NCBI GenBank assembly: GCA_902779055.1
Contig: CACZAD010000007.1
Span: forward strand, 248,001-312,000
From: Fibrobacter succinogenes
GTDB lineage: Bacteria > Fibrobacterota > Fibrobacteria > Fibrobacterales > Fibrobacteraceae
Length of the DNA: 64,000 bases
Direction: 5' to 3'
Shown here: piece after piece, positions 24,939 through 45,844 of the stretch
Layout of the letters: each line of letters begins with the position of its first letter
Position numbering within the stretch: position 1 is the first letter of the stretch
Position numbers and translations under genes: made by a program
Notes under the pieces: generated by a model
Databases searched by the model: none
Told to the model about the DNA's origin: nothing
The model's input: the letters and a program-made list of their open reading frames with translations, nothing else

Positions 24939-25000
24939 ATAATATGACCGGCGGCTCGATTGCAATTTACACTGCGAAACCTCGCCGCCTCTCGCTTCCA

Positions 25001-25020
25001 TCGCCGATTAATATCGGCGA
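25001..25020. repeat. TTAATA-loop hairpin, copy 1
   Basis: TCGCCGA-TTAATA-TCGGCGA, perfect 7-bp stem. It is followed after CTCCA by GCTCACGA. Confidence 0.8.
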
Positions 25021-25037
25021 CTCCAGCTCACGACAAT

Positions 25038-25073
25038 CGCGTCATCCTGAACGCGAAGCGTGAAGGATCCAGT
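25038..25073. repeat. Palindromic repeat GTCATCCTGA...GAAGGATCCAGT
   Basis: The termini CGCGTCATCCTGA and GAAGGATCCAGT surround the hairpin ACGCGAAGCGT. Related copies lie at 46685-46722 and, in reverse orientation inside a coding region, at 28313-28348. Confidence 0.75.
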
Positions 25074-25076
25074 CAA

Positions 25077-25115
25077 TTACTTAACACCAATCAGAGACAG
25101 GTCGCGGACTGCACC
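25077..25115 (-). pseudogene. ilvD: Ghost of an ilvD 3' end
   Basis: Read on the minus strand, the stretch encodes [12 protein letters not shown] and a TAA stop, identical to the last 12 residues of the functional ilvD that ends at 25238. The DNA differs in seven of the 12 codons, all synonymously, including TCT versus AGC for Ser. It therefore comes from a diverged ilvD allele that was once under selection, not from a recent duplication. Confidence 0.85.
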
Positions 25116-25178
25116 ATGTGACGACCGGCGGCTCGATTGCAATTTACACTGCGATACCTCGCCACCTCTCGCCTTCGA

Positions 25179-25198
25179 CGACTCGTTAATACGAGTCG
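25179..25198. repeat. TTAATA-loop hairpin, copy 2
   Basis: CGACTCG-TTAATA-CGAGTCG, perfect 7-bp stem with arms unrelated to copy 1 but the same loop. It is followed after CCCTACG by GCTCACGA. Confidence 0.8.
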
Positions 25199-25237
25199 CC
25201 CTACGGCTCACGATTATGACCGGCGACTCGACAGTTA

Positions 25238-27094
25238 TTACTTCACGCCGATGAGGCTGAGGTCGCGGACTGCGCCCTTGTCTGCAGAGGATGCCATGGC
25301 GGCGTATGCCTGGAGAGCCTTGGACACGACGCGGTCGCGGTTTTCCGGCTTCCATGCCTTGGCGCCACGGGATTCCATTTCCTGACGGCGTGCGGCGAGT
25401 TCTTCGTCGGTGAGTTCCACGTTGATGGTGCGGTTCGGGATGTCGATTTCGATGACGTCGCCCGTGTGCACGAGACCGATGTTACCCTTGTTGGCGGCTT
25501 CCGGAGAAGCGTGGCCGATGGAGAGGCCGCTTGTACCACCGGAGAAACGACCGTCGGTGAGGAGGGCGCAGGACTTGCCGAGGTGACGGCTCTTGAGGTA
25601 AGAGGTCGGGTAGAGCATTTCCTGCATGCCCGGGCCACCCTTCGGGCCTTCGTAACGGATGACGACGACGTCGCCGGCCTTCACCTTGTTGCCGAGAATG
25701 CCGTTCACAGCTTCTTCCTGGCTTTCGAACACGATTGCCGGACCGGTGAACTTCCAAATGGATTCATCAACGCCTGCGGTCTTCACGATGCAGCCGTCGA
25801 TAGCGAGGTTACCGTAAAGAACAGCGAGGCCGCCGTCCTTGGTGTAAGCGTGTTCGCCATCGCGGATGGCACCGTTTGCGCGGTCGAGGTCGTGATCGGG
25901 GTACATGAAGTTCTGAGAGAATGCTTCGATGTTGTACTTGCGGCCCGGACCTGCGAGGTAGCGCTGCTTGGCTTCGGCAGTCGGATTACGCTTGAGGTCG
26001 TTTGCTTCGAGAGCGTCGCCCATCGTGGCGGCGTGAACAGTCTTTGCGCTCTTGTGGATGAGGCCCATGCGGTCGAGTTCACCGATGATGCCCATGATGC
26101 CGCCTGCGCGGTTCACGTTTTCGACGTGGATGTTGTGGACGGTCGGAGCGACCTTGCAGATGCACGGCGTGTTGCGAGAGAGGCGGTCGATGTCCTTCAT
26201 AGTGAAGTCCACGCCAGCTTCCTGAGCAACGGCGAGCAAGTGGAGAACGGTGTTAGAAGAACCGCCCATGGCGATGTCGAGGCGCATGGCGTTTTCGAAG
26301 GCGTCCTTCGTGGCGATGCTCCTCGGGAGGATGCTTTCGTCGTTCAAATCGTAATACTGGTGGCAGAGTTCCACGATGCGCTTTCCGGCGGCTTCGAAGA
26401 GCTTCTTGCGTTCGGCGTGCGTTGCAACGATGGTGCCGTTGCCCGGGAGGCTAAGGCCGAGGGCTTCGGTAAGGGAGTTCATGGAGTTTGCGGTGAACAT
26501 GCCGGAGCAGGAACCGCAAGTCGGGCAAGCGTTGGCTTCGATGTCGGCAACTTCTTCATCGCTGATGGTGTTGTCTGCAGAATCGATCATGGCGTCGATC
26601 AAGTCGAGGGCGCGGTCCTTGCCGTCCTTCGTCGTGACGTGGCCAGCTTCCATCGGACCGCCAGAAACGAAGATTGCCGGAATGTTGAGGCGCATGGCAG
26701 CCATGAGCATACCCGGAGTCACCTTGTCGCAGTTGGAAATGCAAACGAGTGCGTCTGCGCGGTGGGCGTTTGCCATGTATTCGGTGGCGTCTGCAATGAG
26801 GTCGCGGCTGGGAAGGCTATAGAGCATGCCGTCGTGGCCCATGGCGATACCGTCATCGACAGCGATGGTGTTCATTTCCTTGGCGACACCGCCGGCTGCT
26901 TCGATCGCGCGTGCGACAACCTGACCGACATCCTTGAGGTGGACATGACCCGGTACAAACTGGGTGTAGCTGTTCACCACGCAAATGACGGGCTTACCAA
27001 AGTCTTCCACCTTGGTTCCTGTTGCGTGCCAAAGGGCACGTGCACCGGCCATTTCACGGCCTTCCATAGTCTTGAGCGAACGAAGTTTCGGCAT
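25238..27094 (-). CDS. ilvD: Dihydroxy-acid dehydratase
   Basis: 618 residues, the long E. coli-like form. It dehydrates 2,3-dihydroxy acids to 2-keto acids in isoleucine and valine synthesis using an Fe-S cluster. Motifs: the cluster Cys in [11 protein letters not shown] and [19 protein letters not shown], the substrate region [13 protein letters not shown], and the C-terminal [34 protein letters not shown] precedes the ATG at 27094. The gene looks complete. The DNA just downstream carries a second, diverged copy of its last codons. Confidence 0.96.
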
Positions 27095-27200: not shown

Positions 27201-28691
27201 CTAGATTGTTGCAAAGAAGGCGTTGAGGCTAAAGCCGCCGTGGCTTGTCTGGATGACTTTGGCGGTCGGGGCGTGTTCAGGCGAAAGGGCGGGGCATTCG
27301 TGCAAAAGGTTTGCGGTGCAAGTGTACCTAGCGCCGTCGCGGGTGTCGTCTTTTGGGGCGAGGATGGCGACTGTGAGTGTTTTGCCCAAATGGCGTAAGT
27401 CGCGGGCGAGTTCTGTTAGCTTTTGGCCGATTTGCGTGTAAAGCTTGGGCGCGTCAAAGTCGAGGCGTTTGCCGTAAGGCGGGTTCAGCACGAGAATGGG
27501 TGAGGTGTCGCTGCAGGCGTCTGTAATTTCTTTGGCGGTGTAGCTGAAAAAATCTTTTTGTTGCGGTGCGATGGGCGCAGGTTCGATATGTGCGAGCGGG
27601 CTGCATTCCACGTTGTGCTTGATGATGCTTACCGCGCGTTCGGAAATGTCGCTTGTGATGATTTTAGTGATTGTCGCGACATCATTGCTTGCCGACTTAA
27701 TTATAAAATTCCAGGTGGCTTCCTTGAAGGCGGGCTGGTGTTTGAGTGCAAAATCACGGCAAGTGCCGGGAATGATTTTATTGGCGATGCAGGCTGCTTC
27801 GAGGCTGAATGTGCCACTGCCGGACATGGGGTCGAGTATTGTGTATGGTGGCCTCGTCCCCATACGCGGATCATGACCACGTAAGAGCTGAAGCTCTAAG
27901 TGGTCAAAGAGAACGGAGTCCGGGGTGACATCTTGTAAATTGGGTAGTTGGCTGTTTACGTGGAGTGCTTCGAATATCATCGCGGAGGCGATGGTTTCTT
28001 TGAGCGGGGCGTCGTTCACGAAACGTTCAAAGCCGCGCTTGTAGAGTTCTTCTCCGGCGAGGTCCTGCCAGATGGTGCAACGATCGTCCAGAAAGTTGAC
28101 GTAGAGGTTTTGTGGTGTGCCGCGATTCTCGTTTTGCGATGGGGCGTTGCGGGGTGTCCCCGCAGAGGGGGTAGCGGATGCCGTGTCGGCAGAAGCGAGG
28201 GGGACACTTACCCCTTCAATTATTTTATACAAACGTTCTGCGATGGCGTCGCTATGGTACAGGCGGGAATGCTTGCAGGTAACGTGAATGTTTAATGCGA
28301 GGGTAAACTTTACTGGATCCCCTACGCGTTGCTTCGAGGATGACTGGTTATTGGTTAGGTAAAGTTCCCACGGGATTTCGCTGGCTTTCTTTTCGAGTTC
28401 GCGGAAGTTCTCGGCTTTGAAATCGGCGATGTGCATAAGCACCCGGTTGGCGATTCGACTGTAGGCGACTGCTTTCCAGGCTTCGGTAATTTTGGCAGTG
28501 AATTCAACCTTTCCGTCACCCACGATGCGGAAACCATCGGCAGAGCTTGTTGGTTCGCTTGCGGTCTCGATGCCAATGGCCTTAAATTCTGAAACGAGCG
28601 TTTGTTCGAAACCGAGGGGCGCAACCGCTAAAAAACGGTGCGTTTTTCCGATGATTTGTCGTTTAAGTCTTTTTTCGAGTGCCGGATCCAT
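27201..28691 (-). CDS. RlmL-like THUMP-domain rRNA methyltransferase with two in-frame repeat insertions
   Basis: 496 residues. N-terminal ferredoxin-like/THUMP region (~18-210), then a Rossmann methyltransferase with ILDPMSGSGTFSLEAACIA (SAM site), ITSDISERAVSIIKHNV and the motif IV NPPYGKRLDF. This matches the 23S rRNA m2G methyltransferase family (RlmL/YcbY N-terminal half). Two segments do not fit the family. Residues ~114-126 (NNQSSSKQRVGDPV) are encoded by a GGATCC/AGGATGAC palindrome, and residues ~159-187 (Ala/Thr/Pro-rich) by the CCCCCTCGCTT element also found at 42200-42260. Both keep the frame and fall in the THUMP region, probably in loops. The gene starts at 28691; a weaker TGA-free upstream extension is not supported. 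Confidence 0.88.
   Translation of the reverse strand: MDPALEKRLKRQIIGKTHRFLAVAPLGFEQTLVSEFKAIGIETASEPTSSADGFRIVGDGKVEFTAKITEAWKAVAYSRIANRVLMHIADFKAENFRELEKKASEIPWELYLTNNQSSSKQRVGDPVKFTLALNIHVTCKHSRLYHSDAIAERLYKIIEGVSVPLASADTASATPSAGTPRNAPSQNENRGTPQNLYVNFLDDRCTIWQDLAGEELYKRGFERFVNDAPLKETIASAMIFEALHVNSQLPNLQDVTPDSVLFDHLELQLLRGHDPRMGTRPPYTILDPMSGSGTFSLEAACIANKIIPGTCRDFALKHQPAFKEATWNFIIKSASNDVATITKIITSDISERAVSIIKHNVECSPLAHIEPAPIAPQQKDFFSYTAKEITDACSDTSPILVLNPPYGKRLDFDAPKLYTQIGQKLTELARDLRHLGKTLTVAILAPKDDTRDGARYTCTANLLHECPALSPEHAPTAKVIQTSHGGFSLNAFFATI
28130..28215 (-). repeat. CCCCCTCGCTT...CCGCTACCCCCTC element inside the RlmL-like gene
   Basis: On the minus strand GGGGTAAGTGTCCCCCTCGC, then TT and about 17 bases, then CCGCTACCCCCTC with a trailing GGGG arm. 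The intergenic copy at 42194-42256 aligns along its whole length: GGGGAATGTATCCCCCTCGC and TT, then about 16 bases and CCGCTACCCCCTC, then GGGG. Confidence 0.8.
28313..28348 (-). repeat. GTCATCCT...GGATCCAGT palindrome inside the RlmL-like gene
   Basis: ACTGGATCC (28313-28321) and AGGATGAC (28338-28345) are the conserved ends of the element seen at 25038-25073 and 46685-46722, in the opposite orientation. The inner bases (CTACGCGTTGCTTCG) resemble the ACGC/GCGT core of the 25038 copy. Confidence 0.7.
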
Positions 28692-41153: not shown

Positions 41154-42146
41154 CTAAACATGATACTTCTTCAAGCTTTGTGCCTTCTCGTCGATGAGCT
41201 TCATGATGCGGGCGACAGCGTCTGCACCGTTTGCCGTGTCCTTCACGCTTACGAGCGGCTGGAACAACGGGCTGTTGAAGAGCGTTCCGAGAGGAATCGG
41301 ATTCTTGCGGCAGAACGTGGCGTCGATATAGTCACGAGCAGCCTTCTGCAAGTTGTGAGCCTTGTCCTTGTCGCCAGCTTGGAAAGCCTTGTAGAGGTCA
41401 ACGAAAGTCTTGCAAGCTTCCGGGATGTTGCCCGTTGCGCTCACGATACCCGTGCCGCCCATTTCGAGAAGATCTGCAAAGAGACCGTCTTCACCGCTCA
41501 TCACAGCGAAGTCCTTGCCCTTTGTTTCCTTGATGACGCGCATCGTGTCTTCGTGGAACTTTTCGCCAAAACCAAATTCAACTGCCTGCTTGAGACCGAT
41601 GATGTTCTTGTCTTCAGCAAGAGCAATCAAGGTGTCCGGATGGACATAGCTGGAAGTACGACCCGGAACGTTGTAAATGACAATCTTTGCGCCTGTTTCG
41701 CTACTGAGCGTCTGGTAGTGCTTGAGGAGTCCTTCCTGCGGCGGATTGTTGTAGTAGCCAGTGACGCAGAGGACTGCCACCGGAGCAATCTTCAAAACGT
41801 TTTCGATCATCTCGATAGATTCGCGCGTGCAGTTGGAACCAGCGCCTGCAATCACAGGAACGCGACCGTCCACATAGTCGAGCGTAAACTTAATGATATC
41901 CAAATGCTGCTGCGGAGAGACTGTTGCACTCTGACCCGTCGTCACGGCGGGAAGCACGCCACTAGCACCAGCTGCAATAACATCGTCAATCATCTGCCCC
42001 ATCTTCTTGTAGTCGATGGAGTTGCGAAGGTTCTTGGGATCGTCGTTCTTGAGCGGGGTGAACAACGCGGGGAAAACACCAGTAAGTTGAGAAGCGAGTA
42101 GGCAGTAAATTGTTATTAGAATTGCGCCTTTTAGAAAAATTGACAA
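41154..42146 (-). CDS. dapA: 4-hydroxy-tetrahydrodipicolinate synthase; start uncertain
   Basis: The enzyme condenses pyruvate and aspartate semialdehyde in lysine/diaminopimelate synthesis. The TIM-barrel motifs are complete from LTGVFPALFTPL on: AGASGVLPAVTTGQSATVS, YYNNPPQEGLLKHYQ, IYNVPGRTSSYVHP, the Schiff-base Lys in IIGLKQAVE, and GGTGIVSATGNI. The frame has no ATG before this region; the only standard-like codon is TTG at 42146, giving 20 odd hydrophobic residues (MSIFLKGAILITIYCLLASQ). Their DNA (42085-42115) looks partly like the heptamer repeats. The true start may be non-canonical or lost. No Shine-Dalgarno is seen. Confidence 0.88.
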   Translation of the reverse strand: MSIFLKGAILITIYCLLASQLTGVFPALFTPLKNDDPKNLRNSIDYKKMGQMIDDVIAAGASGVLPAVTTGQSATVSPQQHLDIIKFTLDYVDGRVPVIAGAGSNCTRESIEMIENVLKIAPVAVLCVTGYYNNPPQEGLLKHYQTLSSETGAKIVIYNVPGRTSSYVHPDTLIALAEDKNIIGLKQAVEFGFGEKFHEDTMRVIKETKGKDFAVMSGEDGLFADLLEMGGTGIVSATGNIPEACKTFVDLYKAFQAGDKDKAHNLQKAARDYIDATFCRKNPIPLGTLFNSPLFQPLVSVKDTANGADAVARIMKLIDEKAQSLKKYHV

Positions 42147-42467
42147 AATGCTTCGGCGGATATTTTTTTTGGCGATAGATTCTCTCTATGGAATGGGGAA
42201 TGTATCCCCCTCGCTTTAGCCCCTCCGGGTCTTCCGCTACCCCCTCGAACGGGGCCTCAGACGCCGGCTGGAGCCTGCCCCGGACAGGTTCCGGGGTGAC
42301 GCCCCGGCTTGGTGCTGAGAATTTGTTTGAAATGAATGAAATTTATGTCTTGAGTTTTTTACAAGAATTGTAACCCCTTGTTTTGGGTGTTTCTTCCTGC
42401 CGTCTACTTCCTACTTCCTACTGGATTTTTTCTAAATTTTCCGCGTTAAAACTACAAAGGAACCCCT
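42147..42467. repeat. Gene-free spacer made of repeats between dapA and the phosphohexomutase gene
   Basis: I see no gene. It holds the CCCCCTCGCTT...CCGCTACCCCCTC element with a GGGG arm (42194-42256), a CCCCGG-ACAGGTT-CCGGGG-TGAC palindrome (42278-42300) and a four-unit heptamer array (42394-42421: TTCCTGC, CGTCTAC, TTCCTAC, TTCCTAC) that ends 46 bases before the downstream ATG. Confidence 0.8.
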
Positions 42468-44081
42468 ATGGAAAACATTACCCAGATTTGGAAAAAGATT
42501 CAGTCCCCCGAATTCAACCCGGCTACCGATATGAACCTGGTTGAAACCGTGAAGCAGGTCGCATTGACCTCCCAGGAACCGGCTAAGGTCAGCTTTGGTA
42601 CCTCCGGCTGGCGCGGTGAAATCGGTTCTGAATTCACGCTCCGCAACTTGCAGGTTGTCGGTGCTGCTATTGTGCGCTTGTACAAGGAAGCAACTCCGGA
42701 ACTCTTCGCTGCTCTGGGTGTCAAGGATTTTGCCGAACTCCAGAAGCGTGGCGTGGTCGTTGGCCATGACAACCGCTTGCTCGGTCATGAATTCTGCGAA
42801 GCTGTCGCAGACCAGTTTGCAAAGGCTGGCGTGAAGGTCTACTACGGTGGCGAAATGCCGACTCCGGAATTCTCCGCTGCCATCGAAATGCTCGGTGCTG
42901 CCTGCTCCATCAACATGACTCCGAGCCACAACCCGAGCCACTACAACGGCATCAAGTTCAACCCGGCAGACGGCGGTCCTGCAGGTCCGGAAATCACGAA
43001 CGTCATCACCAAGCTTTCTAACGAAATGATGGCTACCTGGAAGTTCGAACCGGTCTCCAAGGTTGACTGGGAAATTATCGACTCCCTCAAGATTTACAAG
43101 GAATTCCTCGTCAAGCAGGGCACGATCAAGTTCGACCGCATCAAGGAATTCATCAAGAAGGGCCGCCTCACGCTCGTGTGCGACCACGTTCACGGTTCTA
43201 CCCGCCGCCGCCCGGCTGCTCTCCTCGACAATCCGGAATGCCTCATCACGCTCCGCAACGAAGACGATTCTTTGTTCGGCGGTATCGCTCCGGAACCGTC
43301 CAGCAAGAACCTCGAAAAGGTCCGCAAGGTCCTCGACGAAAGCAAGTCCTGGTTCCGTCTCGGTGCAATCTTTGACCCGGATGGCGACCGTATCCGTTTC
43401 TACGACGGCACTCGCGAAATCGATATGAACCAGTTCGGTGCAATCGCTTTCCACTACATGGCAACCTGGCGCAAGGAACAGGGCTGCGTGGCTAAGTCCG
43501 TTGCTACTTCCAACTTCGTGAACATCATTGCTGAAAAGCTCGGCGTTCCTGTGATGGAAACTCCGGTGGGCTTCAAGAACTTCCGCCCGTGGCTCTCTCG
43601 CAATGCCAAGCAGAAGGCTCTCGTTGCATTCGAAGAATCTGACGGTATCTCCGGCCTCAACAACACGCTCGAAAAGGATGCCCAGTTCGGTCTCCTCATC
43701 GCTCTCGAAATTCTTGCAACAACTGGCAAGAACCTCGGCGAATACCTCGACGCTTTGTACGAAGAATACGGCCGCTTCTATCCGACCCGTTCTGGTTTCG
43801 AAGTCGACAAGTCCCTCGTTGGCGAACCGCTCAAGGCTAAGGTCAACGCTATTGCCGATATCGCCAAGCCGGGTGCAAAGGTCATGGTTGGCAACAACGA
43901 AAAGACCGTGAAGCAGCTCCTCACGCTCGATGGCGTGAAGGTCATCTTCGACGACGATTCCTGGATGCTCGTGCGTCCGTCCGGTACGGAACCGAAGGTC
44001 CGTATCTATACGGAATGCCGTAACCCGGATGAAAAGGATCCGATGTTCGAAGCCGCTAAGGCTTTGTTCTTCAAGAATTAA
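42468..44081 (+). CDS. Phosphoglucomutase/phosphomannomutase family protein
   Basis: 537 residues. Alpha-D-phosphohexomutases interconvert 1- and 6-phosphosugars and feed glycogen, cell-wall and polysaccharide synthesis. All four active-site loops are visible: substrate N-loop FGTSGWRGEIG, phosphoserine loop NMTPSHNPSHYNGIKF, metal loop FDPDGDRIRF, sugar loop FEESDGISG and phosphate loop LVRPSGTEPKVRIY. The protein is longer than PMM/PGM of E. coli type because of extra helical segments. AAAGGA precedes the ATG. Sugar specificity cannot be told from sequence. Confidence 0.92.
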   Translation: MENITQIWKKIQSPEFNPATDMNLVETVKQVALTSQEPAKVSFGTSGWRGEIGSEFTLRNLQVVGAAIVRLYKEATPELFAALGVKDFAELQKRGVVVGHDNRLLGHEFCEAVADQFAKAGVKVYYGGEMPTPEFSAAIEMLGAACSINMTPSHNPSHYNGIKFNPADGGPAGPEITNVITKLSNEMMATWKFEPVSKVDWEIIDSLKIYKEFLVKQGTIKFDRIKEFIKKGRLTLVCDHVHGSTRRRPAALLDNPECLITLRNEDDSLFGGIAPEPSSKNLEKVRKVLDESKSWFRLGAIFDPDGDRIRFYDGTREIDMNQFGAIAFHYMATWRKEQGCVAKSVATSNFVNIIAEKLGVPVMETPVGFKNFRPWLSRNAKQKALVAFEESDGISGLNNTLEKDAQFGLLIALEILATTGKNLGEYLDALYEEYGRFYPTRSGFEVDKSLVGEPLKAKVNAIADIAKPGAKVMVGNNEKTVKQLLTLDGVKVIFDDDSWMLVRPSGTEPKVRIYTECRNPDEKDPMFEAAKALFFKN

Positions 44082-45616: not shown

Positions 45617-45800
45617 TCCGTAAGGCGAGTGTCGCGACGGCAAGCTTGCTTGCTGGCATGACCGAGCCGCAGGACGGACGCCGAAGCCGAAGGCGTAGAC
45701 GTCAATAGTCCGTAAGGCGAGTGATGCGGGATTGCTTGCAATCCCATAACCGAGCCGTAGGACGGACGCTGAAGCCGAAGGCGTAAGCGTCAGTAGTCCG
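45612..45800. repeat. Tandem palindromic repeat, two full units and a partial third
   Basis: Units begin AATAGTCCGTAAGGCGAG at 45612 and 45704 and AGTAGTCCGTAAGG at 45792 (periods 92 and 88). Each full unit then has a variable central hairpin (GCAAGCTTGC in unit 1, GGGATTGCTTGCAATCCC in unit 2) followed by CCGAGCCG[CT]AGGACGGACGC and GAAGCCGAAGGCGTA. The outer arms are partly complementary. The first unit overlaps the yebC stop codon. No gene is seen up to 45925; a small GTCATTCCCGCC...GCGGGAATC palindrome is at 45810-45836. Confidence 0.85.
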
Positions 45801-45844
45801 TAAGGATTTGTCATTCCCGCCACCGAGCGGGAATCTCCTATAAA

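Follow-up and report, generated by a model that had tools for sequence, protein, structure and literature searches.

The rlmL-like gene of a Fibrobacter succinogenes genome contains, within its coding sequence, one copy of a palindromic element of about 85 nt (hereafter element A), which is repeated in rumen Fibrobacter genomes and lies in frame in about 12 unrelated protein families. We consider it very likely that element A is a non-autonomous palindromic repeat that spreads at the nucleic-acid level and is tolerated in frame in protein linkers. The window, that is, the whole 64,000-nt stretch of DNA analyzed, belongs to a 3.88-Mb genome (referred to as its own genome, G000), and the features discussed are collected in Table 1.

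Table 1. Positions of the main features in the window, with strand and supporting evidence.
Feature	Position	Strand	Evidence	Remarks
rlmL-like gene, host of the inserts	27201-28691	-	ORF, 496 aa	23S rRNA guanine-N2-methyltransferase family
Element B, second palindromic repeat in frame in rlmL	27847-27930	-		residues ~254-282; hairpin GACCACTTAGAGCT..AGCTCTTACGTGGTC
Element A, in frame	28137-28220	-	CM E 6.7e-18	residues ~158-185 (EGVSVPLASADTASATPSAGTPRNAPS)
Hairpin H3 of element A	28148-28164	-	fold, covariation, cross-phylum core	TGCGGGG ACA CCCCGCA
Hairpin H2 of element A	28179-28191	-	fold and covariation	TGCCG ACA CGGCA
Hairpin H1 of element A	28198-28215	-	fold and covariation	AGGGG..CCCCCT
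Third repeat in rlmL, probable	28312-28344	-		residues ~116-127; CATCCT..GGATCCAGTAAAG type
dapA-like gene, neighbor of the non-coding copy	41154-42146	-	name by eye	divergent
Non-coding element A copy	42189-42309	+	CM E 2.3e-7	intergenic
Palindrome nested in the non-coding copy	~42269-42296	+		CCTGCCCCGGACAGG..CCGGGG
Phosphohexomutase-like gene, neighbor of the non-coding copy	42468-44081	+	name by eye

In-frame repeats in the rlmL gene

The product of the host gene contains the Pfam domains UPF0020 and RlmL_1st and matches the NCBIfam model RlmKL at E 1.8e-38, under the equivalog cut-off, and its nearest solved structures are 3ldu and 3v97. An initial annotation, made from the sequence of the window, had placed an in-frame element inside this rRNA methyltransferase; the CM search of the own genome confirms the element and sets its bounds (C7:276137-276220). 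In an alignment with outgroups, the segment is absent from the RlmL of other Fibrobacterota families, and some Fibrobacter species also lack it; 3ldu and 3v97 are likewise without it, a short different loop being aligned at its place. Element A is recognizable by nhmmer in the RlmL of 19 of 30 Fibrobacter species, a count that includes the own genome from other searches because the nhmmer scan file excluded it. The RlmL loop of other species is empty or has unrelated repeats at this place. This distribution indicates that the RlmL copy is probably an old insertion, common to most of the genus and not private to the genome of the window.

Element A is one of several repeats in this gene. Element B is an 88% match to an intergenic copy (G000:C7:55573-55656), and between the two copies its stem changes from GAGCT/AGCTC to GAACT/AGTTC; additional copies of element B carry stops, and it is absent from the other 29 Fibrobacter-genus RlmL sequences aligned. 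The probable third repeat is 88% identical over 33 nt (E 1.5e-4) to C7:105533-105565, and its site is occupied by different repeats in other species. Because of inserts at several sites, the length of RlmL varies within the genus, from 413 to 589 aa among full-length sequences. AlphaFold predicts disorder at all three repeat places, with pLDDT <50 at residues 115-122 and 125-130, 162-190, and 257-277.

Repeats of other kinds are also present in the window. At 24946-25172 and 25076-25276, downstream of and overlapping the end of an ilvD-like gene, are direct repeats with lengths of 50 nt (96%) and 40 nt (78%), which look like a duplicated gene tail, and two 61-nt direct copies that are 90% alike, with a spacing of 88 nt, are found at 45657-45805.

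Copies in Fibrobacter genomes and on plasmids

There are about 20 copies of element A in the own genome (24 CM matches at E ≤ 0.1, the weakest being uncertain). Most are non-coding, and three are in frame in unrelated genes, namely those for RlmL, an RluA-family pseudouridine synthase (PSU) and a GT4 glycosyltransferase. The likeness between the RlmL segment and a non-coding element at 42194-42256, from which the initial annotation started, stands for the elements as wholes, by blastn (E 0.0015), by CM and by nhmmer (E 2e-22 and 5e-19 for the 42194 and RlmL copies, respectively, under a model seeded with both), but not for the single shared blocks. Although the 11-mer CCCCCTCGCTT and the 13-mer CCGCTACCCCCTC have just two exact sites each, singly they fall within chance (33 and 29 of 100 shuffles, respectively); combined into one motif, they give exactly two sites in the 3.88-Mb genome and zero in a reversed control. 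The exact-pattern search by itself, having found two copies, was misleading on further genomic copies, three of which match by blastn at E 9e-13, 7e-11, and 1e-7. An orthologous intergenic copy, without the nested palindrome of the 42194 copy, is present in the relative G045.

Across the genus, 60 of 61 Fibrobacter genomes match a profile of the insert peptide, a search biased towards the sense frame, whereas the CM search operates at the DNA level without frame bias; many of the genomes compared are MAGs. Hosts of sense-frame copies include RlmL, PSU, GT4, CoaBC, FeoB, a TonB-receptor-plug protein, GluQRS, a GDSL protein, and CehA/McbA-like and Peptidase_MA-like proteins (the last two names being matches under curated cut-offs), and antisense-frame copies are found in HrpB (under its equivalog cut-off) and TilS. 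In G090, which has 73 CM matches, at least five genes hold sense-frame copies among the best 30 of the 73, which also comprise the antisense-frame copies in HrpB and TilS. Whether the other frames are open, a point raised in the initial annotation, can be answered: non-coding copies contain stops in some frames, and coding copies are read nearly always in one sense frame and less often in one antisense frame. The copies in HrpB and TilS rule out a single coding frame for element A, which is also present in other Fibrobacterota families.

The GT4 linker illustrates the turnover of such sequences, in that among orthologues it is empty or holds element A, other repeats, or element A bearing another palindrome. 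Other repeats are likewise nested within the element A copies of PSU, GT4 and the TonB protein. The own assembly has two GT4 orthologues (C27:17405-18724 and C37:38967-40223), only one of which contains element A; this pair may represent a strain mixture, the contamination estimate being 7.9%. In a census of 195 orthologue pairs, drawn from one contig (G000:C7) and part of one relative (G045:C1), 8 of 55 indels matched dispersed repeats, as compared with 18 of 1100 control segments. Other repeats in frame among these pairs are a CCCGG(T)CAAGCCGGG hairpin in a UvrA-like protein, a CATCCTGAAC..GAAGGATCC repeat in a topoisomerase-III-like protein (both names by eye), and a CCCTGAGCTTGTCGAAGGG repeat in a 1377-aa protein.

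Element A is not specific to Fibrobacter, since other phyla have related full-length copies on their plasmids and on viral contigs. By blastn and CM, matches are located on plasmids of Magnetospira (CM 81.7 bits), Caulobacter, Sphingobium, Tardibacter, Phenylobacterium, Agrobacterium, Shinella, Treponema, and Granulicella, and related elements on eight IMG/VR contigs; CM matches span the full length on viral contigs and on the plasmids of Alphaproteobacteria, Treponema and Granulicella. The 3' core is borne by plasmids from Alphaproteobacteria, Campylobacter and an acidobacterium, frequently in the vicinity of ardC. An exact core of 24 nt recurs in 33 Campylobacter plasmid records, in which the 3' hairpin only is kept (CM 19 bits, one record read). 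Among the 42 plasmid records with the core, 38 are conjugative and 33 are those of Campylobacter; the 3' core is absent from the known phage records and E. coli genomes searched. The plasmid copies checked lie between genes or almost so, with that of Magnetospira overlapping the end of a hypothetical gene. Several of them (among L310-L320 and L329) share the strand of an adjoining ardC, zincin, SSB, or toprim gene, and several others lie near other genes; the hairpins of the plasmid copies are a candidate leading-region signal. On one IMG/VR contig, a copy (L323:3013-3103, minus strand) forms the in-frame C-terminal end of a portal protein of the phage SPP1 type, and coding use therefore extends beyond Fibrobacter.

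Hairpins and nucleotide-level conservation

Compensatory changes, seen in Fibrobacter and again in an independent non-Fibrobacter set, support the three hairpins of element A, the last of which (H3) is followed by a conserved CGCAACGCCCC tail. Across 51 copies, 90.6% of cells are paired, with 75 double changes compared with 22.6 ± 4.6 after shuffling. For 23 plasmid and viral-contig matches, the alignment of which was fitted to the model and hence leans towards it, 93.1% are paired, with 42 double changes compared with 11.4 ± 3.9. The predicted fold was obtained for a window copy (z −1.9) and a sister copy (z −3.2). Rfam gave no match to the window at E ≤ 1, and against the plasmid and viral copies it gave only an antisense, sub-threshold match to Collinsella-1 (24 bits vs. 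35). This match (L322:140-304, minus strand) overlaps an element A copy on the opposite strand, and Collinsella-1 may be a related palindrome.

Unexpectedly, element A is also conserved at synonymous sites, to ~95-100%, as compared with ~50% in the flanking codons. Between species, fourfold-degenerate sites of RlmL are 88-100% identical inside element A and ~46-76% identical elsewhere in the gene; in the coding RlmL copies the count is 16/16 vs. 68/136 in the core, and a codon-matched expectation of 7.4 leaves this conservation unexplained. The conservation peak of RlmL coincides with element A, with a shoulder just upstream (0.80 at residues 140-153). An equal trend is seen in the PSU, FeoB, and TonB copies and a weaker one in CoaBC and GT4, and the intergenic orthologue shared by the own genome and G045 is conserved between diverged flanks.

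As to the source of this conservation, the stems are not more conserved than other columns within orthologous coding copies, and because they vary as often, maintenance of the hairpins was not supported there as an explanation. Genome-wide homogenization by gene conversion is not favored either, since copies resemble their orthologues, whereas within one genome the RlmL copy differs from the PSU copy. Survivorship of recognizable copies may contribute, but element A persists in the majority of the RlmL clade members compared. The synonymous conservation, taken together with the presence of the core on plasmids outside the phylum, suggests that the nucleic acid itself is selected or recognized, and it is plausible that the DNA or RNA of element A has an extra function or is recognized.

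Origin of the insertions and known palindromic elements

We infer that element A entered proteins through a mobilizing activity and is harmlessly translated. A small non-autonomous repeat, consisting of three hairpins and the tail, would propagate at the nucleic-acid level and would have reached tens of copies in each Fibrobacter genome, most of them intergenic. It would be tolerated where it lands in a surface linker, its frame reads through and its length keeps the gene in frame. A tolerated copy would then be translated as a flexible loop rich in Ala, Thr, Pro, and Ser, and the RlmL copy would be an old case within the genus. Given the in-frame copies in RlmL and about 12 unrelated proteins, a selfish-looking DNA repeat seems to have joined proteins repeatedly.

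This reading has to be weighed against several others. That the segment is a low-complexity linker evolved in place, its likeness to other sequences being due to composition or chance, would fit its Ala/Thr/Pro-rich makeup and the single motifs that are non-significant in the window, but it is refuted by the significance of the whole elements, the covariation, the in-frame copies in unrelated genes and the DNA matches across phyla, and we give it almost no credence. Only slightly less improbable is that the element is removed before or during translation, by bypassing or splicing, and is thus missing from the protein. Elements that are hopped over occur elsewhere, and element A is structured, lies in coding sequence and is conserved as nucleic acid; however, a bypassed element need not stay open, and internal stops are nearly absent from the genus-wide RlmL matches (one TAA among the matches listed). 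Mobilization of a REP-like element by a RAYT or Y1 transposase is also unlikely, if somewhat less remote than removal. The palindromic form, the many copies and hairpins that suit single-strand transposition speak for it, but Y1 transposases are present in only 20 of 61 genomes and absent from the element-rich G016 and G092, and that of G090 is partial with a stop. By its sequence, the sole Y1_Tnp of the own genome (G000:C5:13610-13966) looks like a TnpA of the IS200 type; it has flanking hairpins of its own, and no element A is near it. A MITE-type comparison of termini in the GT4 linker and the census inserts revealed hairpin ends in the element A inserts and no clear target-site duplication, near-identical empty element A sites being lacking there.

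A further reading, possible rather than probable, is that element A serves a conserved nucleic-acid function on plasmids and other mobile elements, such as that of an ssDNA promoter or a priming site in the leading regions of conjugation, and was inherited and amplified by Fibrobacter chromosomes. The protein insertions would then be a by-product, and the sequence would be kept by selection or by a recognizing protein. The full-length CM matches on plasmids and viral contigs, the preponderance of conjugative records among those with the core, the intergenic or nearly intergenic positions, in several cases beside ardC, zincin, SSB, or toprim genes, and the conservation both of fourfold sites and of the intergenic orthologue are all consistent with it. 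On the other hand, several plasmid copies lie near other genes, 20-73 chromosomal copies exceed the need of one leading-region signal, and the Campylobacter copies, which account for most of the core-bearing records, consist of the 3' hairpin only. In its broadest and equally tentative form, element A might be an undescribed structured DNA (or RNA) element of conserved sequence, present in at least five phyla on plasmids, viral contigs and chromosomes and recognized by a widely conserved partner for priming, ssDNA transcription, or transposition, and in Fibrobacter a genome-wide repeat under nucleotide-level selection even within protein genes; if this were true, enzymes would carry a translated copy of a plasmid signal.

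The tolerated, non-autonomous repeat that we favor resembles the Rickettsia palindromic elements (RPE), described as palindromic repeats of about 100 nt found between genes and in frame in many unrelated conserved proteins (Ogata 2000, 2002; reviewed in PMC2229807). By structure and location, element A may be likened to RPE, being palindromic and both intergenic and in frame in unrelated genes, and the suggestion that an amplifying palindrome had become protein as RPE do is borne out by the dispersed copies and by outgroup RlmL without the insert. Unlike RPE, element A has Fibrobacter as host, is ~85 nt long with three hairpins, uses one sense and one antisense frame, and has a core in common with plasmids of other phyla; moreover, several unrelated repeat families use the same linkers in Fibrobacter, and insertions are nested. 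Protein-coding palindromic repeats are also described for Wolbachia and Methanocaldococcus jannaschii (cited in PMC2229807), and enterobacterial RU/ERIC as small mobile repeats whose open reading frames have become fused to genes (PMC2759123). By these descriptions, the former are protein-coding palindromes outside Rickettsia, as is element A, in other lineages, and the latter are small repeats inside genes, in a different host group. REP/RAYT systems share short palindromes in many copies, but no RAYT was found for element A, which is commonly inside genes. Frpo-type ssDNA promoters belong to conjugative leading regions. With their hairpins near ardC and SSB genes on conjugative plasmids they may be analogous to element A, from which they differ by its many chromosomal copies in Fibrobacter.

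To our knowledge, palindromes that code for protein had been reported chiefly in Rickettsiales and a single archaeon. Neither a paper on such elements in Fibrobacter, for which the initial annotation also knew of no description, nor the core sequence of element A in print was found in the open literature; the phenomenon resembles RPE, whereas the lineage, sequence, and breadth are new. The Fibrobacter copies extend such palindromes to another phylum, in a genus associated with the rumen, and to core enzymes (RlmL, CoaBC, FeoB, and TilS). Since many species have the same linker empty, filled, or otherwise filled, the tolerance, turnover, and cost of insertions become directly testable, and the nucleotide conservation, together with the core on conjugative plasmids, suggests an undescribed functional nucleic-acid element that can likewise be put to the test.
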